Of a stretch of DNA of 64,000 nucleotides, positions 17,466 to 28,361 are shown piece after piece. The notes under the pieces are model-generated. The model was not told the origin of the DNA, did no database searches, and saw only the letters and a list, made by a program, of their open reading frames with translations. The first letter of the stretch is position 1. The number at the start of each line of letters is the position of its first letter. The DNA comes from Myxococcus stipitatus DSM 14675 (GTDB lineage Bacteria; Myxococcota; Myxococcia; Myxococcales; Myxococcaceae), in contig NC_020126.1 of assembly GCF_000331735.1 (NCBI RefSeq), positions 3,038,001 to 3,102,000 of the forward strand. The letters run 5' to 3'. Position numbers and translations under genes: made by a program.

Positions 17466-18917
17466 TCAGGCCCAGGCCCGGCGGACCTCGGCGTAGTAGT
17501 TGCGGAAGAAGGGCACCATCGTCGCGCGGTTGCTCTCGACGATGGCCAGCAGCTCGGGGGGAAGGACGAACTCCTCCTCACCCAGCTCCGCGTAGAGGGA
17601 GTCGAGCAGCTGTTGATAGAAGCGCGGGAACGAGCGGTGCCAGCCGACCTTCGGCAGTCGGATGCCATGCTCCCACCCCATGGCCACGTAGTGCTTGAGG
17701 GCCTCCTCGCGGGCCTCCTTGAGCGAGTAGAGGGAGAGGGGCTTTCGCTCCGGGAGGAAGTCCTCCTGGATGAGTCCGGGCTGTCGGCACATCCGCCGCG
17801 CCAGGTGCTGGCCGAGCAGCGGCGACTGGAAGAGCCCGTCGCGATAGGTGCCCGTGAGCAGCCACAGCCCCTCCACCGACGTGGGGCCGATGAGGGGACA
17901 GGTGTCGACGGTGACGGGCCGGTTGCCGGTCTGCCACGTGACGAGCTGCGCGGCGCAGAGGTCCTGGTCGATCTGCTCCAACAGACACTCGAGGACGAAG
18001 TACATGTCCGCGGGCGTCGTGCGCAGCAGGGGCTTCGCCGACAGGATGTTCGTCGCGCCGACGTAGACCTGATTGTCCGCGCGAGGAAGCGCATGCAGTC
18101 CACAGGCGAAGGCACGGTTGGGTGTCCGCACGACATGACGGAGCGTCTGCCGAGGCACATGGAGGAGCAGTGACGTGCCACCACCGCAGAAGATGCGAGG
18201 GATGCGGCGGGCCAGTTCCGGCAGCTCGTCGAGGACCGCCTGCGTCCCGACGCCCATCGCGAGCACGACCTGCGGCGCCGACAACGTCGTCCCATCCTCC
18301 AGTCGAACACCCGTGACGCGGCCCTTGTGGATGTCGAGCGCCTTGACCGCTCCGTCCACGAGCGTCACCTTCGGAGACTGCTCCAGCACCCGCGTCAGGC
18401 CGCGCAACAGTCGGCTCGCGTCCACGGTGCCCTCGCGAGGGAGGAACAGCGCCCGCTTGGGACGGCAATCCTCCGCGGGGTTCAAGCCGGGGACCTGGTT
18501 GGGGTCGAGCTCCTCGTGAGGCTCGCCCTCGTCCCGGACCGCCTGCTGGATGGCGAGGAAGTTCTCATCCTCGATGGTGCCCGACTTCGCGTTGCTGAAC
18601 ACGATGGTGCCCGGGTGGATGTGCACCTGCTCGTGGGCGGGGAGCTGGCTGTTGAGCCCTTCGAGCCAGGCGGGCCACAGCTTCGCCGCGAGCACGCTCT
18701 GCGCATGTCGCGCGCGGCCGGCCGGGGTTCGCAGCAGCGGCGCCGTCACCTCGCCGTAGCAGCCCAGCATCGCGCCCGCGGCGGGAGAGGCCCCCGCTGG
18801 CCTGCCGACGGGGCCCACCACGGCGATGCGCAGCTCGGGGTCCTGGAGGGACAGGGCGCGCGCGGTCGCCAGTCCCAGCGCCCCATTGCCCGCTACGAGG
18901 ATGTCATGGGTGCTCAT
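17466..18917 (-). CDS. FAD-dependent amine/amino-acid oxidase (DAO family) of the RiPP operon
   Basis: A 483-residue flavoprotein of the D-amino-acid-oxidase/glycine-oxidase fold: an N-terminal Rossmann segment ILVAGNGALGLATA (GxGxxG), a GAMLGCYGE segment after it, and near residue 360 the NRPVTVDTCPLIG and GLWLLTGTYRDG stretches typical of the second FAD-contact region. Enzymes of this fold oxidise amines to imines. It is the last gene of the HEXXH operon, 124 bp after the candidate precursor, with GAGGAG 10 nt before its ATG. Oxidation of the modified peptide or a released amino acid is an inference. An about 60-residue extension at the C-terminus beyond the usual fold is Glu/Leu-rich. Confidence 0.8.
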   Translation of the reverse strand: MSTHDILVAGNGALGLATARALSLQDPELRIAVVGPVGRPAGASPAAGAMLGCYGEVTAPLLRTPAGRARHAQSVLAAKLWPAWLEGLNSQLPAHEQVHIHPGTIVFSNAKSGTIEDENFLAIQQAVRDEGEPHEELDPNQVPGLNPAEDCRPKRALFLPREGTVDASRLLRGLTRVLEQSPKVTLVDGAVKALDIHKGRVTGVRLEDGTTLSAPQVVLAMGVGTQAVLDELPELARRIPRIFCGGGTSLLLHVPRQTLRHVVRTPNRAFACGLHALPRADNQVYVGATNILSAKPLLRTTPADMYFVLECLLEQIDQDLCAAQLVTWQTGNRPVTVDTCPLIGPTSVEGLWLLTGTYRDGLFQSPLLGQHLARRMCRQPGLIQEDFLPERKPLSLYSLKEAREEALKHYVAMGWEHGIRLPKVGWHRSFPRFYQQLLDSLYAELGEEEFVLPPELLAIVESNRATMVPFFRNYYAEVRRAWA

Positions 18918-19041
18918 TCGCGGGCGGCTCCTCGGTGGGGCGGGTGGCGATGGGGAGAGAGGCCCGCCGGGCCCGGCGCCTGGTTCGCGGAGGCACCGGA
19001 GCGCGGGAACGGCGGGCCAGACAGCGGGATGCGCGAAGCGG

Positions 19042-19197
19042 TCAGTCCTCGTTCCGCTTCGTGTCGTTGACCGTGTACGGCGGCCACCACTGACGCTCGG
19101 CGCTGGAGCCGCACGTCACGCTGGGCGCCTGGAGCTGCTGCTTCTCGGCCACCAGGTTCTTCACCGTCTCCAGCCACTGCGTGTCATTGGGGTTCAT
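19042..19197 (-). CDS. Candidate RiPP precursor peptide (51 residues)
   Basis: A 51-codon gene whose ATG overlaps the stop of the upstream HEXXH gene (ATGA) and has AAGGAG 7 nt upstream, so it is clearly meant to be translated. The N-terminal half (MNPNDTQWLETVKNLVAEKQ) is helical and charged like a leader. The C-terminal half holds a single Cys, then the aromatic/proline cluster RQWWPPYTVNDTK and an acidic end. This composition and its position between a PqqD-like-domain modifying enzyme and an oxidase make it the likely substrate. No known precursor family is recognised. NDT occurs near both ends of the peptide. The core boundary is not evident; the WWPPY region is the best guess. Confidence 0.72.
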   Translation of the reverse strand: MNPNDTQWLETVKNLVAEKQQLQAPSVTCGSSAERQWWPPYTVNDTKRNED

Positions 19198-20654
19198 GTC
19201 GCTTCTCCTTGCTGCCGTGTTGGCTCTACGAGGGTACTGCGTACAAGCGAGTCGAGCCCCGTGCGGAGCTGACGTCGTGCTTCGGCGGCATCGACCCTGC
19301 CGCCCACGACCTCCAGGTACGCTCGCTCCATCTCGGGGAGCGTGCGGCCATCGCTGAGCTCGAAGATGAGCCATGCATTCAAATCGAGCCAATGGATGCG
19401 CGGTGCCTCCGGAGAGAACACCATCAAGCACTCGCCCCGAGGCGAGGCGCGGGCCCGCAGGCCGCGTGTCTTCCGGTACGCCGTGAGGTCCACCGTCGGA
19501 GGAGGGCTCTCGCGGACCGCGTCGCCGTAGACGGCGCGACTGACGGGCTCGAGTGAGTCATTGAGCCAGCGCACGAAGTCGCGCCCCTGGGGCGTGAGCA
19601 GGTGCGACCACTCCGTCGACAACTGCTGACCCAGGAATCGCGTCCGGTCGATGGAGCGGTCATAGCCCGGGGCACCCGGCTTGCGCTCCACCGAGGTCGC
19701 GTGGGCATGGGAGAGATAGGCGGACGGGTCTCCAAACCGTCGGAGCAACACGTCGTCCGCCGAGAGCGCCGCGGCCTTGAACAACGCGAGGTGGACATAC
19801 ACATGGTAGGAGAACACCGCGCGGACGATGGACCAGCGGATGTTCCGCCAGGGGACCTGGATGGTCTCCTCGGGCTGGGCCACGAGCGCGGTGGAGCGCG
19901 TGGCGTCGAAGAGCTTCATGTGGAGCGCTTCATGGAGGATGCAGCCGGCGATGTCCCACGGGTTGCCCAGGTCCCGGATGGCCAGGAAGATGGTGGAGGG
20001 CGTCAGGTCTCCCCCCGCGGCGGACAGGACGGTGCCGCCTTCGAGCCGCGCGCTGAGCAGCGCGATGGCCTCCACATGGGTGAGCGCGCCCACGCCCGAG
20101 TGGGGCAGGAGCGTGGTGAGCAGCTCGATGGCGTCGTTGAGCCGGCGCTGGGCCTCCGCGTCGGGGCTCAGGAGCTTCCCGCTGCTCCCGGGCCTGGCGC
20201 CGAAGACGCCGTCGAACGCGGCCTGGAGCGCCAGCGAGTAGGGGTCCGTGGCCTGGGCCGCGCCCCACAGCCACTTGGGCGTGTCCTGGCCCACGAGCCA
20301 GCGCGACGGCATGCGGGACTCGGACAGGCCCAGGGGCAGCGCCGCGAGGGCGGCCGGGAGGCATTCCTCCAGGGGATGGGGGGATTGCAGCCGCCCCGTT
20401 TCGAGGTCGGAGAAGGCCTGCTCCAGTGCCAGCCGGACCAGGGGGTCGAAGAAGATGCGCCGCGCCTCGCCGTCGTCGAGCGCTTCGATGGCGGTGACGG
20501 TCCGGGCGAGCGAGGGCAGGCGCTCGGCGAACAGCTCCAGTCCGAAGCGGTAGCGGGTGATGACGCGCGCGAGGATGCGGGGCGTGTCCCCGAACGAGGG
20601 GTGGGCGACCAGCGCGCGGTCCGCCTGCTGGATGAGGTCCTTGGGGGTGGTCAT
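19194..20654 (-). CDS. HEXXH-type putative peptide-modification protein with C-terminal PqqD-like domain (second copy)
   Basis: A 486-residue homologue of the upstream gene. The motif HEALH (241-245) is followed about 45 residues later by a YHVYVHLALF segment whose His may be the third metal ligand; the same spacing and residues occur in the paralogue. The last 90 residues, after YRKTRGLRARAS, match the PqqD-like peptide-binding (RRE) pattern: strands around CLMVFSPEAPRIHWLDLNA, then helices AWLIFELSDG and MERAYLEVVGG. Proteins of this HEXXH class occur beside ribosomally made peptides as presumed metal-dependent modifying enzymes. The start has GGAGG 9 nt upstream and overlaps the previous stop by ATGA; its own stop overlaps the precursor ATG in the same way. 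Confidence 0.83.
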   Translation of the reverse strand: MTTPKDLIQQADRALVAHPSFGDTPRILARVITRYRFGLELFAERLPSLARTVTAIEALDDGEARRIFFDPLVRLALEQAFSDLETGRLQSPHPLEECLPAALAALPLGLSESRMPSRWLVGQDTPKWLWGAAQATDPYSLALQAAFDGVFGARPGSSGKLLSPDAEAQRRLNDAIELLTTLLPHSGVGALTHVEAIALLSARLEGGTVLSAAGGDLTPSTIFLAIRDLGNPWDIAGCILHEALHMKLFDATRSTALVAQPEETIQVPWRNIRWSIVRAVFSYHVYVHLALFKAAALSADDVLLRRFGDPSAYLSHAHATSVERKPGAPGYDRSIDRTRFLGQQLSTEWSHLLTPQGRDFVRWLNDSLEPVSRAVYGDAVRESPPPTVDLTAYRKTRGLRARASPRGECLMVFSPEAPRIHWLDLNAWLIFELSDGRTLPEMERAYLEVVGGRVDAAEARRQLRTGLDSLVRSTLVEPTRQQGEAT

Positions 20655-22135
20655 CGCGAGGCGCCTCCGGAGTCGCGGGCTGCTCGGGGAAGTCGCTCCA
20701 CCATGCCGCTCGCCACGAGGCCCTCGAGGGTGGGGGCGAGCTGTGCCCAGGCGCGCTCGGCGCCCAGTCCGAGCGAGGCGGTGTATGCGGAGAGCAGCTC
20801 CTCCTCGGTCTTGTCCTCGCACAGCTCGAACGCGAGCCAGGCCGCGAGGTTGAGGGTGACGATTCGCTGGGTGCGCGGGTCCAGGGCGAACAGCGCCTCG
20901 GACGACGGCGAGCGGCGCAGCGACAGGTGGCGGCCCTTCCGGTAGCGCGCGGAGGAGGGCGGCGCGCGCGGCGAGGCCGTGACGGAAGGGGCGGGGGCGG
21001 TGGAAGCGCGCTCGAAGGGGCGCAGCGTGTCCCAGAGCCACGCGACGAGCTGCCGCCCGTGCGGCGTCAGTCGCGGGGACAAGGGGCCGGAGAGCTGCGC
21101 GTGCAGGAAGTCGAGTCGTTCTTCCGCGCGCGAGTAGGGCACGGCGGTCTCGTTGTTCACCACGGACATCGCGTGGGCGGGGGCCTGGTAGTCGCGAGGG
21201 GCACCGAACTCGGCGTGGCATTCCGGGCCGAGGTGCTCCACCGCGGCGCGGAACACGTGCATGTGAACGTAGGCGTGGAAGGCGAAGAGGGTGTTCGAGA
21301 GCGCCGTCCGGCGGCCCCAGGGGAGGTCGACGGGCTCGTCATCCGTGACGATGGCGCCGGTGCGGATGAGGTCCGAGAGCTTGAGGTGGATGCCCTCGTG
21401 GAGGATGTGGCCGGCGGTGTCCCAGGGATTCTCCAGCTCGTCCGGGTCGATGAAGATCATGCAGGGAGTGCCATCCCCGCCCGAGCCCGTGAGCATGCGT
21501 CCGCGCGCGCCTCGGATATGGGCCACGGCGATGGAGTGCAGGTGGCGGAAGATGCTGTCCGCCATGCGGGGCACCAGGCGGTGGAGCAGGGTGCAGGCGC
21601 GCTCGAGTCCCTGGGCGCCGCGCGGAGTCGGGCGGAGGATGCTCACGCTGCTCTGGGCGCCGGGCATGAAGCCCGTCTGGATGCTCTCCCGGAGGCGGTC
21701 GGCCAGCGGTGTCGACGCGTCGGGGAGGTCCCAGACCCAGGTCCGCGCCGAGGGGCCGACGATGAGCTCGCGCTCCATTCCGCGCCGAGCGAGTCCCGGA
21801 CCGCGCTCCCGAGACGCGGGGCCCAGTGCGTCCTCGAGCAGGGAGGCCAGCTTCTCGCATTCCGCGCCGGAGGGGCCGGAGGACTCGATGCGACTGACTG
21901 CTGACTCCAGCTCCGCGCGGACCAGGAGGTCACCCAGGAGCATGTCCACCGAGCGGGCATCCAGCAGCTCGACGCGGGCCGCCCACTCCTGCAGCCGCGT
22001 GTTGCTTCGCGCGAGGACATCCAGCGCGAACTTGTACCGCTCGAGGACTCTGCCCACGATGCGTGAGGAGTCGCCGAACTGTTCGTGCTGCTGAAGCTGC
22101 CCGTCGACCTGCCGGATCGCATCAATCAGTTGCAC
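20651..22135 (-). CDS. HEXXH-type putative peptide-modification protein with C-terminal PqqD-like domain (first copy)
   Basis: A 494-residue protein with HEGIH (246-250), a FHAYVHMHVF segment about 45 residues later, and a PqqD-like C-terminus (from YRKGRHLSLRRS through ALDPRTQRIVTLNLAAWLAF). It aligns over its whole length with the next gene, including the N-terminal IRQVDGQLQQHEQFGD against IQQADRALVAHPSFGD. The GTG at 22135 is chosen because GGGGAGG lies 5 nt upstream and it matches the paralogue's start. ATG at 22174 is an alternative without a ribosome binding site. First gene of the operon. The function, like that of the family, is inferred from genomic association with small peptides; alpha-ketoglutarate- or metal-dependent chemistry is possible. 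Confidence 0.8.
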   Translation of the reverse strand: MQLIDAIRQVDGQLQQHEQFGDSSRIVGRVLERYKFALDVLARSNTRLQEWAARVELLDARSVDMLLGDLLVRAELESAVSRIESSGPSGAECEKLASLLEDALGPASRERGPGLARRGMERELIVGPSARTWVWDLPDASTPLADRLRESIQTGFMPGAQSSVSILRPTPRGAQGLERACTLLHRLVPRMADSIFRHLHSIAVAHIRGARGRMLTGSGGDGTPCMIFIDPDELENPWDTAGHILHEGIHLKLSDLIRTGAIVTDDEPVDLPWGRRTALSNTLFAFHAYVHMHVFRAAVEHLGPECHAEFGAPRDYQAPAHAMSVVNNETAVPYSRAEERLDFLHAQLSGPLSPRLTPHGRQLVAWLWDTLRPFERASTAPAPSVTASPRAPPSSARYRKGRHLSLRRSPSSEALFALDPRTQRIVTLNLAAWLAFELCEDKTEEELLSAYTASLGLGAERAWAQLAPTLEGLVASGMVERLPRAARDSGGASR

Positions 22136-22256
22136 GCCGTCCTCCCCTTGGCGGATGGAGCCACTCAGCGCCATCAACCCGGTTCAGTCTGGAAGTATTC
22201 CATTTTATGATTAAGCGGACTTTCGCGCCACAAAGACAGGGCACTCACGACCCCGG

Positions 22257-22298
22257 TTGACGAAAGACTCGTCAATGAGAGGGAGAAGGCAGTCATTG
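22257..22298. promoter_or_regulatory. Two inverted repeats upstream of the HEXXH/RiPP operon
   Basis: TTGACGA (22257-22263) and TCGTCAA (22269-22275) form a perfect 7-bp dyad with a 5-nt spacer. Directly beside it, CAATGA (22273-22278) and TCATTG (22293-22298) form a 6-bp dyad. They lie 120-160 bp before the operon start. On the minus strand a weak sigma-70-like pair follows closer to the gene (TTGTGG, 18 nt, CATAAA near 22200). The 404-bp gap 22136-22539 contains no gene besides these elements. Confidence 0.45.
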
Positions 22299-22539: not shown

Positions 22540-22830
22540 TCAGCGCACCTCGGGGCAATTCCAGCGGAGGATCGGGCTGCCGGTCGTGCCGTGGTTCTCA
22601 CAGACGCAGAGGTAGTCGGACCAGATGCCGTCCGTGCACTCCATGGTGTTGCCGGCGTTGCCACAGGTCGTCAGGTCCGCCTCCCAGCAGATGGGCGTGG
22701 TGAAGTCCCGCGGAGCCTCCGTCGACTGATTCTCCGCGCCGCGGAGCTGCTCCTCTGCGCTGACATCCTCCGTGGCGCCTGCGAGCAGGGGAAGGGCCAG
22801 CGCCGCGGCGAAAAGCAGGGTCTTCTTCAT
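22540..22830 (-). CDS. Small secreted Cys-rich protein
   Basis: A 96-residue protein with a clear signal peptide (MKKTLLFAAALALPLLAGA). It then has an acidic linker and a mature domain containing six cysteines, in a pattern suggesting three disulfides. GGGAG lies 9 nt before the ATG. It is transcribed in the same direction as, and about 400 bp upstream of, the HEXXH operon, and is divergent from another small secreted protein at 23074. No family is recognised. It could be a periplasmic or extracellular stable small protein; a link to the RiPP operon is possible but the intervening promoter-like elements argue that it is separate. Confidence 0.68.
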   Translation of the reverse strand: MKKTLLFAAALALPLLAGATEDVSAEEQLRGAENQSTEAPRDFTTPICWEADLTTCGNAGNTMECTDGIWSDYLCVCENHGTTGSPILRWNCPEVR

Positions 22831-24507: not shown

Positions 24508-25905
24508 TCAGGCGTACAGCTCGCTCAGCGGGCCCGGTGCGATGCGCGTGCTGCCCTCTTGCCCGAAGGTGTTGAAGTCCGCGTCACCGAACGCGTGGCC
24601 GAGCGTGTTGAAGAGGTTGGAGACCTGCCGGTTCCGGGGGGCGTCGTACTTCGGGTACACGACCGTGCGTCCATCGGTCTTCAGGCCCAGCGCGTTGCCT
24701 CCCACCACGAGCTTCGGCCACTCCCGCGAGGTCGAGTGGTGCTGCTCGCCGTTGTCGGACATGAAGACGATGGCGGTGTGGTCCAGCATGGAGCCGCTCG
24801 CGCCGACCTCGGGCGTGGCGGCCAGCGTCCTCGCCAGGTTCGCCACCAGCTGCACGTGGCGGCGGGTGACCTCGGCGACGCGATCCCAGTTCTGCCCCGC
24901 ATCCAGGCCGTGCTGCAGGCTGTGGCGCGCGACGTCGGCCACATCCGCGCCGTAGGCCACGTCGAAGCCCGAGGTGCCCGTCGCCAGCACCACCGTGTTC
25001 GTCAGCCCGCCCAGGAGGGAGGCGGTGGCAATCTGGAACTGGGCCTCGAACCACTTCAGCGAGTCGGGCGGTGAGCCCGCGCCGGTGATGAGCGGGTTGT
25101 CCTTCGGCGCCGGCGGCAGGTAGGGCCGCACGCGGTCCGCCATGCCCGCGAGCTGATCCTCCCGCGTGCGCAGCGACTCGAGCGAGGTGAGGTAGCGCTC
25201 CAGCTTCAGCCGCTCGTTGGAGTTGCCTCGGAACTCCGCCAGCGCCTTGCGCGAGTCGGCCAGCGCGAAGTCGAAGAGCATCTTGCGGTCTCGCCCCGTC
25301 GTCGAGCCACCGAGCAGCGAGCCGAAGGTGCTGTCGAACGCGAGCGACGGGTTGACGATGATGCCCGCGGGCTTGCGCGGTCCGAGCGCGCAGGTCTCGT
25401 AGACGATGGACACGCGCGCGGAGCTGGTGCCCAGGCGCAGCACGTCGAACGGTGCCCCTCGGCGCAGGCGAGGGGCAATCACCGCGTCGAAGGTCGCGCC
25501 CGCGCCATTCACCGCGCAGCTCAGCCCGCCCGTCCCGCTGGAGTGGCCGCCGCCCGCGATGAGGTTGGAGAGCCCCAGCAGCACGGCGGAGCGCTTCACC
25601 AGGTCGATGCCGCCGGAGGACGCCGCCAGCGGCCCGAGACACAGCGCGCTCGCGAGGTTGTCGCCCTCGCGCACCAGCGGCGTGTCCTTGTACGCGTCCC
25701 AGAAGAGGCGGTCGGAGGTGTTGGCACGTCCACCGAGCGCCGTGCGGGTGCCCGCGCTCAGGAGCGCGCGGGGGTAGACGCCATTGCACTCGAGGACCAG
25801 CACCAGTCGCGCCGGCAGCGCGGACGACTGGGCGTAGACGTCATGGAAGTAGGGCGCGAAGAGGCCGGCGGCCATGCCCTTCAGGACGGTTCGTCGCGAG
25901 AACAT
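24508..25905 (-). CDS. DUF1552 protein with Tat signal
   Basis: A 465-residue protein opening with a twin-arginine signal (MFSRRTVLKGMAAGLFAPYF), so it is probably exported folded. The body matches DUF1552 in its segments AVLLGLSNLIAGGGHSSGTG, the central helix region and the final DHTAIVFMSDNGEQHHSTSR part that recalls the alkaline-phosphatase/sulfatase-like DUF1501 relatives. It partners the upstream DUF1592 protein, as is usual in Planctomycetes and myxobacteria. ATG at 25905 has GGAGAG 8 nt upstream; a GTG at 25914 overlaps the upstream stop. The biochemical role is unknown; oxidation or handling of an extracellular polymer has been suggested by genome context only. Confidence 0.85.
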   Translation of the reverse strand: MFSRRTVLKGMAAGLFAPYFHDVYAQSSALPARLVLVLECNGVYPRALLSAGTRTALGGRANTSDRLFWDAYKDTPLVREGDNLASALCLGPLAASSGGIDLVKRSAVLLGLSNLIAGGGHSSGTGGLSCAVNGAGATFDAVIAPRLRRGAPFDVLRLGTSSARVSIVYETCALGPRKPAGIIVNPSLAFDSTFGSLLGGSTTGRDRKMLFDFALADSRKALAEFRGNSNERLKLERYLTSLESLRTREDQLAGMADRVRPYLPPAPKDNPLITGAGSPPDSLKWFEAQFQIATASLLGGLTNTVVLATGTSGFDVAYGADVADVARHSLQHGLDAGQNWDRVAEVTRRHVQLVANLARTLAATPEVGASGSMLDHTAIVFMSDNGEQHHSTSREWPKLVVGGNALGLKTDGRTVVYPKYDAPRNRQVSNLFNTLGHAFGDADFNTFGQEGSTRIAPGPLSELYA

Positions 25906-25910
25906 GGCGG

Positions 25911-28244
25911 TCACTCTCCAGCCTGCGGCACGCGCCGCGTCTTCCAGGTGTCGCTGGTCATCAGCGTGGTCAGCATCTTGGAGAACGAGCCTTGGTTCTC
26001 ATCGTAGGTCTGCTCCATCCGCGTCAGCGTGCAGGCATCGCTCAGGTTCTCCGGGCGGCCCATGAAGTAGCGGAAGGCCTGTCGCACGAAGCAGCGCTTC
26101 ACGTGCCGCGAGGTCGCCAGTCGCTCGCTCAACTCCACCGCGTCACGCACCGTGCCGTTCAGCGCGGGGTCCGGCATCGACGTCAGCGTGGAGCTTCCAT
26201 CCGGCGTGGTCCAGCCTCCGCTGGGCGAATGGTCGCGCGCGCGCAGGAAGCCCGCGTGGTTGTAGATCTCGAAGGGCAGGCCGAGCGGCTCCATCAGGCG
26301 GTGACAGCCCTGGCACTGCGCTCCGGCGGTCGCCTCCCGCAGGCGGCGTCGTGCGTTCTTGTCCGCGGCGTGGGCGCCGACCTGCGCCGCCACCTGCACG
26401 CTGCTGAGCGGCGGGACGAAGCCACACAGGAGGTTTTCTCGCACCCACTTGCCGCGGTGGACGATGGAGGGGTCGTCCTCGAAGTTGCCGCCGTGCGCGG
26501 CGAGCCACACCGGGTGGGTCAGCACCCCCGCGCGCTCGGAGGCGGGCAGCGTCTTCCAGCGGCCCGCGATGGTCGCCGGGAGGATCTCGCTGACGTTGTA
26601 GGGGTGCGAGAGGCCCTTGTGCGAGTCGTAGGCCGCGTTCGCCATGGAGGGCACGTAGAAGGTGCGCGTGGTGAGCAGGTTCGCCAGCACGTCCTTGTCC
26701 TCGACGACCACCCGGGCAATCAGGTCGTCGAACTGCTGGATGAAGGTCGGCTCCAGCGGATGGAAGTTGGTGAGCAGGTTCTCGTACGAGACCGCGCTGA
26801 TGGAGCCGAGCCCCTCGAGCTCGAAGCGCGAGGTCGCCGCCGGGGACTCCTTGAACACCCCGGCCACGTGTCCGTAGTCGAGCCACTCGCGGAAGAAGCC
26901 CGCGACGCCGTCACCCAGCCAGTACTGCCCGCGCTTGGAGCGCTGCTCCTCGTTGTAGTCCTGCACCAGGTCGAAGCGCGGTGTCCCGTTCTGGAGGGCG
27001 TCGACACCGCCAAAGTGCTTCGCAATCAGGGCGGTGGTCGTCGCATCCTGCGTGAGCGAGCCATCCTTCGCGGCGGTGGCCACGTCCGCCAGGTGCCCCT
27101 CGAGGGGCGCGGAGTAGTGGGGCCACACGAAGCTCGGCGTGGCCGAGGGCGCGCGTCCCCCCAAGGCGTAGGCGAGCTGCGAGCCCAGCTCGAGGCTGGT
27201 CAGCTCCACGCGCCCCCCTGCTGGCTCGCCGCCCATCTCACGGCGAAACATGGCGCCGGTCATCATCCACGCGGCGTTGGAGATTCTCGTGATGGAGTCC
27301 GCGCGGATTTGGGGAGACTTGCTCGGCTCCTGCGCGATGACCTCGGTCGCGAAGGTGGTGAGGCGGGTGAGCTCATCCTCGGTGGGCGGGCGGAAGAAGA
27401 CGCCGAACTCGAGCATCTGGCCGAGGTGGAAGCGCTTGCAGGTGTCGCTCGGGTTCGCGTCGTTGAACATGCAGCCGAAGCGGTTGTTCGTGAAGACGCG
27501 CTCCATCCGGTTGCCGTCCGGGTAGTTCATCGTCCACGGCGAGGCGGCCTCACCGACGACCGGGAGGAAGAGCTCCACCGTGGCCTCGTCCAGGGTCTCG
27601 TCCGTGGCCCAGGAGCTGTACTGCTCGATGGCGCTGGGGTCGAGCGGGTTGTCGTAGAAGCTGAACCCGGTCCAGCTGCGCTCCACCGAGCCACCGACGT
27701 TGCGGGTGAACTCGCGCCGGTTCATGCGGCGGATGCGCGTCGGTGCATCCGAGCGAACGCCCGCGGTGCAGCTGAAGAGCGCGGACGGATCGAGCAGGTT
27801 GGGCTCGGACACCGCGGTCACCGGCGGCCCGCCCGTCTCACTGCAGAGGGGCATCCCCTCTCCCATCCAGGACTCGAGCGCGGAGAGCTCGGCTGCGCTC
27901 GCGCGCTCGTGGGGCACGGGCGGCATCGGAGACGTGTCGTCGCGCATGCGGATGAGCGCGCGCTGGGCGTTGTTGACCCGCCCATCCATCGCGGAGCTCA
28001 CCCGCAGGTCGTGCAGGGTCCGCAGCGGCATCGTCGCGCCCTGGGTCGGCATCGCGCCGTGACAGCTGGAGCAACGAGCGGTGAGCACTGACTGCACCAC
28101 GCACGCGGCGGCCCGATTCTCCCCGGGCCCCCCATCGGGTCCCCCTGGGGTGTCGGGGCCTCCATCGTGGGTGGTTGGCCCGTTCGCGGTGCCCTTGCAC
28201 GCAACGAGGCTCAACAGTCCGGCCAGGAGAAGGACGCGGTTCAT
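25911..28244 (-). CDS. DUF1592/DUF1588/DUF1585 cytochrome-c-like lipoprotein
   Basis: A 777-residue lipoprotein (signal MNRVLLLAGLLSLVAC). Near the N-terminus there is a heme-attachment-type CSSCH in a planctomycete cytochrome-like region. The DUF1592-type central region follows with NRREFTRNVGGS and the long helical part. The end holds the DUF1588/DUF1585-like segments with GAQCQGCHRLMEPLG (a second CxxCH) and KRCFVRQAFRYFMGRPEN. Two heme c sites suggest electron transfer in the periplasm or outer membrane. ATG at 28244 opens the signal peptide; the frame continues to 28310. It is followed immediately by the DUF1552 gene. Confidence 0.85.
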   Translation of the reverse strand: MNRVLLLAGLLSLVACKGTANGPTTHDGGPDTPGGPDGGPGENRAAACVVQSVLTARCSSCHGAMPTQGATMPLRTLHDLRVSSAMDGRVNNAQRALIRMRDDTSPMPPVPHERASAAELSALESWMGEGMPLCSETGGPPVTAVSEPNLLDPSALFSCTAGVRSDAPTRIRRMNRREFTRNVGGSVERSWTGFSFYDNPLDPSAIEQYSSWATDETLDEATVELFLPVVGEAASPWTMNYPDGNRMERVFTNNRFGCMFNDANPSDTCKRFHLGQMLEFGVFFRPPTEDELTRLTTFATEVIAQEPSKSPQIRADSITRISNAAWMMTGAMFRREMGGEPAGGRVELTSLELGSQLAYALGGRAPSATPSFVWPHYSAPLEGHLADVATAAKDGSLTQDATTTALIAKHFGGVDALQNGTPRFDLVQDYNEEQRSKRGQYWLGDGVAGFFREWLDYGHVAGVFKESPAATSRFELEGLGSISAVSYENLLTNFHPLEPTFIQQFDDLIARVVVEDKDVLANLLTTRTFYVPSMANAAYDSHKGLSHPYNVSEILPATIAGRWKTLPASERAGVLTHPVWLAAHGGNFEDDPSIVHRGKWVRENLLCGFVPPLSSVQVAAQVGAHAADKNARRRLREATAGAQCQGCHRLMEPLGLPFEIYNHAGFLRARDHSPSGGWTTPDGSSTLTSMPDPALNGTVRDAVELSERLATSRHVKRCFVRQAFRYFMGRPENLSDACTLTRMEQTYDENQGSFSKMLTTLMTSDTWKTRRVPQAGE

Positions 28245-28361
28245 CCGGCCAGAGTCGCACGGGCTGCCGGGGGGATGGCAAGCAGGCCCTGCCCGGGCGG
28301 GGGTCGACATGCACGAAGGCTTCCTCTCGAACGTTCGGGAGGTCGGGGATGTATGTCTGGG

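Follow-up and report, generated by a model that had tools for sequence, protein, structure and literature searches.

What becomes of a small peptide whose gene lies between those for two HEXXH proteins and that for a flavoenzyme is the question raised by a locus of Myxococcus stipitatus DSM 14675. The locus belongs to a stretch of 64,000 nucleotides (contig NC_020126.1, positions 3,038,001 to 3,102,000; hereafter the window), in which the open reading frames (ORFs) place four genes on the minus strand in the order H1, H2, peptide, flavoenzyme. An original prediction had taken them for an operon making a ribosomally synthesized and post-translationally modified peptide (RiPP), modified by one or both HEXXH metalloenzymes and finished by the flavoenzyme. 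Its central point, a RiPP-type operon with two HEXXH enzymes, recognition domains and a conserved precursor, is upheld by gene co-occurrence, by the TIGR04267 profile and by a structural model of a RiPP recognition element (RRE). As for the chemistry, the reading that we favor, with somewhat more confidence than doubt, is that the two HEXXH hydroxylases modify the conserved core of the precursor and that the flavoenzyme caps a peptide amine with a formimidoyl or iminoacetyl group derived from glycine.

A conserved precursor gene and its operon

By the coding signatures of its relatives, the 51-codon frame is a genuine gene under selection. In the relatives measured, GC content is 0.90-0.98 at third codon positions against 0.30-0.43 at second positions, an AAGGAG ribosome-binding site is conserved, and nonsynonymous divergence is mostly well below synonymous divergence in pairwise comparison, the exception being a distant pair (L065/L072) with similar values. 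A frame left untranslated in related genomes would have spoken against the original prediction; these three signatures point the other way. No variation among Myxococcaceae and Lysobacter peptides is seen at V27, T28, G30, S31, E34, R35, W37, P39 and P40 or at a few leader positions, and the core reads VT-x-GS-x-x-ER-x-W-x-PP-(Y/H). One segment of it, ER-x-W-x-P, is common to the peptides of Myxococcaceae, Lysobacter and Streptomyces.

Close relatives of H2 occur in 18 of 96 Myxococcaceae genomes, and the peptide gene is present in every one of the 18. The order H1-H2-peptide-flavoenzyme is strict in 15 of them, with overlaps of -4 or -1 bp and a gap of 112-139 bp before the flavoenzyme gene; such constancy of order, overlap and gap in 15 genomes argues for an operon rather than chance. 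The other three (G032-G034) hold a single HEXXH gene, a separate ORF for the recognition domain and the peptide gene, without H1 or the flavoenzyme, and in their peptides W-L replaces W-W. A peptide profile run over 195 Myxococcota genomes gave no match clearly above noise outside the 18, the weak matches in G062, G117 and others (E 0.005-0.1) being taken as chance. The search was also open to HEXXH homologues standing without a small peptide gene, which would again have weakened the prediction, and every close homologue found adjoins one: the peptide lies beside the enzymes in 18/18 Myxococcaceae, 3/3 Lysobacter and seven Streptomyces plasmids.

Many RiPP cores are variable, but this one hardly changes from phylum to phylum, as might also be expected of a redox-cofactor precursor, on the lines of PQQ or mycofactocin, or of a modified regulatory peptide; nor were transporter, immunity or protease genes seen nearby. 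The patchy distribution within genera (15 of 96 genomes) and the lanthipeptide setting in Streptomyces resemble secondary metabolism, however, and no dependent enzyme family is known for the peptide, though no systematic search was made for one. We regard a cofactor or regulatory role as quite improbable.

The HEXXH proteins and their recognition domains

Both HEXXH proteins pass the curated TIGR04267 cut-off of 40 bits (scores in Table 1), and they are the only two proteins in the 10.35-Mb genome that match this model. H241, E242, H245, K247, H284 and Y286 are invariant in the HEXXH alignment, and H288 nearly so (H2 numbering). The AlphaFold2 (AF2) model of H2, with a predicted local distance difference test (pLDDT) score of 85, matches the ChlB HExxH domain (8s5f) over 297 residues at 3.6 A, and the VIA Z-score to SjiH (22ob) is nearly as high as that to ChlB; a ChlB-like fold is supported by this model for H2 and by alignment only for H1. 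The prediction had counted these proteins in a class with few defined reactions. They do fall into a family, the alpha-ketoglutarate (aKG)/Fe peptide hydroxylases, whose reactions are by now partly defined: for characterized members, the literature describes hydroxylation at His, Asp, Phe, Gln or Pro, and also oxidative backbone cleavage (PMC12636437, PMC13060819). Oxidation of core residues would be expected of H1 and H2 by analogy.

There is some ground for a different expectation, namely that H1 and H2 cleave the precursor, be it as peptidases or as maturation proteins of a non-oxidative kind. Zincin proteases carry this very HEXXH motif. Moreover, one member of the same family, PflC, can cleave the peptide backbone both oxidatively and hydrolytically (PMC12636437). 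That said, the curated model that both proteins exceed is one of hydroxylases, and the fold that H2 matches, that of ChlB HExxH, belongs to an aKG oxygenase, so that cleavage of this kind seems highly improbable.

The PqqD-like peptide-binding domain that the prediction assigned to the end of each HEXXH protein fared unevenly. In Pfam searches H1 stays below threshold (18.1 against a cut-off of 23.4 bits, E 0.0034, residues 431-493), and the C-terminal tail of H2 gave no Pfam match. The last 90 residues of the H2 model nevertheless adopt an RRE fold, with its best Z-score to the TbiB1-leader complex of a lasso-peptide system (5v1v) and a lower one to PqqD (5sxy). The RRE assignment rests on this model, since the Pfam score alone leaves it open. 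A sequence search of the PDB with the split RRE returned nothing useful. In three Lysobacter and three myxobacterial genomes (G032-G034) the recognition domain is encoded as a separate gene, and such splits amount to a natural experiment on how HEXXH enzymes recognize a leader.

H1 and H2 are ancient paralogues whose split, in the tree, predates the separation of Myxococcus and Lysobacter. Both have been kept ever since, and an old split followed by retention suggests that they probably do different jobs. The W-L peptides of the H1-less genomes hint, as a lead only, that H1 may act at or near the second Trp.

Tandem HEXXH genes of G059 and G021 were kept apart from this set, as they fall on a distant branch and adjoin genes for GG-leader peptides and C39 transporters. 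One such locus in the window's genus (L077:6602-14451) represents a separate HEXXH RiPP family: its pair of tandem HEXXH genes is accompanied by three GG-leader peptides, whose cores are of GTCGSTY type, by a C39 peptidase ABC transporter and by an aldo-keto-reductase-like gene. A second, from another Myxococcaceae genus (L078:4645-12058), has tandem HEXXH genes, a 51-residue GG-leader peptide and a C39 transporter, and runs to a contig end.

An Orf1-type flavoenzyme and its possible role

The best phmmer matches of the flavoenzyme are Orf1 structures (E 1.4e-94 to 8gri and 6.6e-94 to 7xqa), with glycine oxidase far behind (E 4e-10). Residues 5-482 align to residues 33-511 of the Orf1 chain at about 39% identity, and the alignment takes in the C-terminal helical domain of about 100 residues that Orf1 has and glycine oxidases do not. 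Orf1 is the N-formimidoyl synthase of BD-12 biosynthesis; it oxidizes free glycine, holds it as a glycine imine-N-O-S-Cys281 adduct and, from this adduct, donates a formimidoyl or iminoacetyl group to an amine (PMC10156733). Product formation is abolished in Orf1 by C281A/S and by E426Q, and glycine oxidation by R342A (PMC10156733). Six Orf1 residues, C281, T298, F316, R342, R368 and E426, correspond to C272, T289, F307, R333, R359 and E416 of the flavoenzyme and are conserved in 13/13 aligned homologues (6 RiPP-linked and 7 from further Myxococcaceae). Other DAO-family proteins of the same genome, ThiO included, were aligned and have neither C281 nor E426 nor the C-terminal domain. The DAO-family oxidase of the original prediction thus keeps its fold, and what had looked like a generic oxidase is better described as a homologue of the Orf1-type synthase with its diagnostic residues. 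These residues predict transfer of a group from free glycine, not simple oxidation of the peptide. That the peptide is the acceptor is what we infer.

It is unlikely, in our estimation, that the flavoenzyme of this same RiPP pathway directly oxidizes a peptide amine, or a hydroxyl installed by the HEXXH enzymes, with no transfer of glycine, an alternative that comes near to the original prediction. The DAO fold (PF01266), a ThiO-like FAD (flavin adenine dinucleotide) domain at E 4e-28 and replacement of Orf1 Glu312 would all suit a direct oxidase. Such an enzyme should not, however, need the NOS-bridge cysteine, Glu426, R342 or the C-terminal domain, all of which are kept here, and the aligned ThiO-like proteins are without C281 and E426. 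Identification as ThiO or as a generic amino-acid oxidase was rejected: the score to TIGR02352 is 98.4 bits against a cut-off of 250.8, residues and domain length differ, and the genome's own ThiO reaches 328 bits.

The genomic company kept by the flavoenzyme bears on a further alternative, in which it acts on free small molecules and is merely co-regulated, while the peptide is modified by H1 and H2 only. Such an arrangement would fit the gap with its hairpin, the convergent gene in Lysobacter, and the lack of the enzyme in G032-G034 and at the Streptomyces plasmid loci. Yet this clade of flavoenzymes accompanies the H1-H2-precursor genes in 15/15 Myxococcaceae and 3/3 Lysobacter loci, and its members are 66-68% identical between Myxococcus and Lysobacter as opposed to 50-53% to paralogues linked to genes for nonribosomal peptide synthetases (NRPS) and polyketide synthases (PKS). 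Being closer across phyla than to the paralogues within the family, the flavoenzyme appears to travel with this operon, and we consider the small-molecule alternative rather unlikely. Several inner forks of the flavoenzyme tree are open, and no direction of gene transfer is claimed.

The gap itself holds a GC-rich hairpin in 15/15 operons, in which 96.4% of the hairpin cells are paired as compared with 37-51% when the partner is slid. Support from covariation is modest because changes on both sides of a pair are confined to two pairs (three cells), and the sequence has no clear T-run. The hairpin may keep flavoenzyme expression below that of the peptide.

The paralogues themselves form a set of seven (L131-L137, from G005, G002, G021, G017, G016, G069 and G019) that are 50-53% identical to the flavoenzyme and keep the main catalytic residues. 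Most adjoin NRPS/PKS-like genes, as read from sequence rather than by family search, which makes these loci candidates for formimidoylated or iminoacetylated non-ribosomal products. One Streptomyces plasmid likewise has a 36% homologue in an NRPS cluster. Paralogues in such settings suggest that the Orf1 family works on natural products and that one clade has joined the peptide operon.

Several observations weigh against formimidoyl or iminoacetyl transfer to the peptide. Known substrates of the Orf1 family are aminoglycosides and streptothricins, not ribosomal peptides, and the peptide core has no conserved Lys to offer an amine. Orf1 E312/E313 are not kept, the corresponding residues being A303/D304 here and A/D in RiPP-linked homologues; Glu312, near the adduct in Orf1, is seen in 7xqa, although Orf1 E312A still forms compounds 5 and 6, so that E312 is not strictly required (PMC10156733). 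The hairpin separates the flavoenzyme gene from that of the peptide, in Lysobacter the flavoenzyme gene is convergent on the opposite strand, and three genomes (G032-G034) keep the peptide and a single HEXXH gene and have no flavoenzyme. No adjacent protease or transporter gene was seen at the locus, and the AF2 model of the flavoenzyme, built from 7 alignment rows, is too poor for use (pLDDT 42).

Glycine-derived capping after core oxidation, still the reading that we favor, would run as follows. The precursor would consist of a leader-like N-terminal part (about residues 1-26) and the conserved core. Judged by their fold and by the genomes in which the recognition domain is a gene of its own, the RREs at the C-termini of H1 and H2 would bind the leader, and the two enzymes, as aKG/Fe(II) HExxH oxygenases, would hydroxylate residues of the core; the likeliest target is ER-x-W-x-P, because this segment is common to the Streptomyces systems with a single HEXXH protein. 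The flavoenzyme would oxidize free glycine at its FAD site and hand it to Cys272 as an N-O-S adduct; homology along the full length and the conserved residues suggest that a primary amine of the peptide would then receive a formimidoyl (or iminoacetyl) group from this adduct. At a guess, the acceptor may be the new N-terminus left by leader removal, possibly the conserved Gly30, which once capped would be similar to N-formimidoylglycine in BD-12. Enzymes encoded elsewhere would have to take care of leader removal and export.

RiPP clusters with HExxH oxygenases are already known; what is new is that they come as an RRE-bearing pair, together with a conserved family of peptides and an enzyme of Orf1 type. 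Whether a ribosomal peptide is indeed capped by an Orf1-type flavoenzyme via a cysteine N-O-S adduct after paired-HEXXH hydroxylation, which would be a new RiPP modification, seems to us an evenly balanced matter on sequence evidence. No report of peptide N-formimidoylation or iminoacetylation in RiPPs was found in the literature searched, and NOS-bridge chemistry would, if the proposal is true, extend from aminoglycosides to peptides. Amidine caps change charge, and on aminoglycosides they block acetylating enzymes; an enzyme that makes them could be a useful tool. With four genes and a gene-encoded substrate, both NOS-bridge transfer and paired HEXXH oxygenation are directly testable in E. 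coli.

Relatives, known systems and neighboring genes

A wider scan, over 84,980 species genomes, recovered the full set of H1, H2, precursor and flavoenzyme in three Lysobacter species, at identities to the window's proteins of 47-49% for H1, about 60% for H2 and 66-68% for the flavoenzyme. Their separate recognition-domain ORF directly follows the H2 gene, and the L. enzymogenes peptide is MSNETNLDTLKDLLSNKKALEESEVTTGSADERRWWPPYNVSPAPPSN. A class I S-adenosylmethionine (SAM) methyltransferase gene that myxobacterial operons do not have lies between the Lysobacter peptide and flavoenzyme genes (L087:7717-8610) and may add a further modification.

On Streptomyces plasmids, a full-length HEXXH-RRE homologue (28-33%) is encoded just downstream of a 45-residue peptide that ends in AEERAWVPAYWAAPAAA and holds ERAWVPAY, of motif class ERxWxPxY. 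Among 8 records with this peptide, 7 have the HEXXH gene and one an apparent remnant of it: in the plasmid of Streptomyces sp. ADI95-16 (L151:4001-4548), the peptide is kept and followed by a 110-residue hypothetical ORF, probably the remnant. At L147:8694-10479 and L146:8722-10440, the ERAWVPAY peptide gene, which bears no annotation beyond hypothetical protein, immediately precedes a HEXXH-RRE gene. What these two FDLD lanthipeptide clusters have in common with the operon is a HEXXH-RRE homologue, encoded on the plasmids immediately after a small peptide of ERxWxPxY type; they differ in having one HEXXH protein, with class I lanthipeptide genes and a sulfotransferase alongside, and no Orf1-type enzyme within the stretch read. 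In Streptomyces globosus, an FAD oxidoreductase encoded about 7 kb upstream proved unrelated to the operon flavoenzyme. Occurrence in Myxococcus, Corallococcus and Archangium, in Lysobacter and partly also in Streptomyces suggests a peptide family that has gone unrecognized.

With the aKG-HExxH hydroxylases (ChlB HExxH 8s5f, PflC/PosC, PesO, BpmH) the operon proteins share TIGR04267, the HExxH motif, a ChlB-like fold and an adjoining small peptide gene, but here two ancient paralogues, each with a C-terminal RRE-like domain, stand in one operon without a radical SAM, MNIO or nitroreductase partner. The Pseudomonas pfl/pos RiPP clusters likewise direct a HEXXH oxygenase to a small precursor and have no protease in the cluster; they differ in a nitrile-hydratase-type leader, a Gln/ARMD core, an MNIO-nitroreductase fusion and transporters, and no Orf1-type enzyme is described (PMC12636437). 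In the nitrilobacillin pes cluster, a HExxH enzyme beta-hydroxylates a core Pro beside an unrelated nitrogen-chemistry enzyme; that cluster has an MNIO and an asparagine-synthetase-like nitrile synthase, and neither a HEXXH pair nor a flavoenzyme is described (PMC13060819). Orf1, or N-formimidoyl fortimicin A synthase (7xqa, 8gri; PMC10156733), shares full-length homology, the six key residues and the C-terminal extension with the flavoenzyme, which is encoded here with a RiPP precursor and HEXXH enzymes rather than in an aminoglycoside/streptothricin cluster.

The leftward run of four genes, the ATGA overlaps that join H1 to H2 and H2 to the peptide gene, and the 124-bp gap from peptide to flavoenzyme all lie where the original prediction had placed them (Table 1). 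Only its upper bound is shifted: 22298 takes in about 120 bp of upstream DNA, and the operon starts near 22174, where an ATG is a likelier start for H1 than the TTG at 22177.

Table 1. Positions in the window of the operon genes and their features.
Feature	Position	Strand	Basis
H1, aKG-HExxH-type peptide hydroxylase paralogue 1 with C-terminal PqqD-like recognition domain	20651..22174	-	TIGR04267, 83.5 bits
PqqD-like stretch of H1, residues 431-493 (numbered from TTG)	20699..20887	-	Sub-threshold Pfam match; aligns with H2 RRE
H2, aKG-HExxH-type peptide hydroxylase paralogue 2	19194..20654	-	TIGR04267, 67.3 bits; AF2 model, pLDDT 85
HExxH catalytic domain of H2, residues 14-372	19539..20615	-	Z 23.9 to ChlB HExxH domain 8s5f, 23.2 to SjiH 22ob
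HEALH (HExxH) motif of H2, residues 241-245	19920..19934	-	Alignment invariance
RRE of H2, residues 391-481	19212..19484	-	Z 10.8 to 5v1v, 7.8 to 5sxy
Precursor peptide, 51 residues, MNPNDTQWLETVKNLVAEKQQLQAPSVTCGSSAERQWWPPYTVNDTKRNED	19042..19197	-	Conservation, coding signature, synteny
Conserved hairpin between precursor and flavoenzyme genes	18962..19017	-	Present in 15/15 genomes
FAD enzyme, Orf1 / N-formimidoyl fortimicin A synthase family, 483 residues	17466..18917	-	phmmer; catalytic residues kept
Cys272 codon, equivalent to Orf1 Cys281 (NOS-bridge cysteine)	18102..18104	-	NRAFACGLH motif

Upstream of the operon, positions 22540-22830 of the window encode a 96-residue, Cys-containing protein of secreted appearance; in G072 a 39% homologue of it is encoded downstream of the operon (L060:14421-14726). 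Farther on, at 24508-28310, a DUF1552 gene and a DUF1588/DUF1585 gene are coupled, the latter matching cytochrome c weakly.

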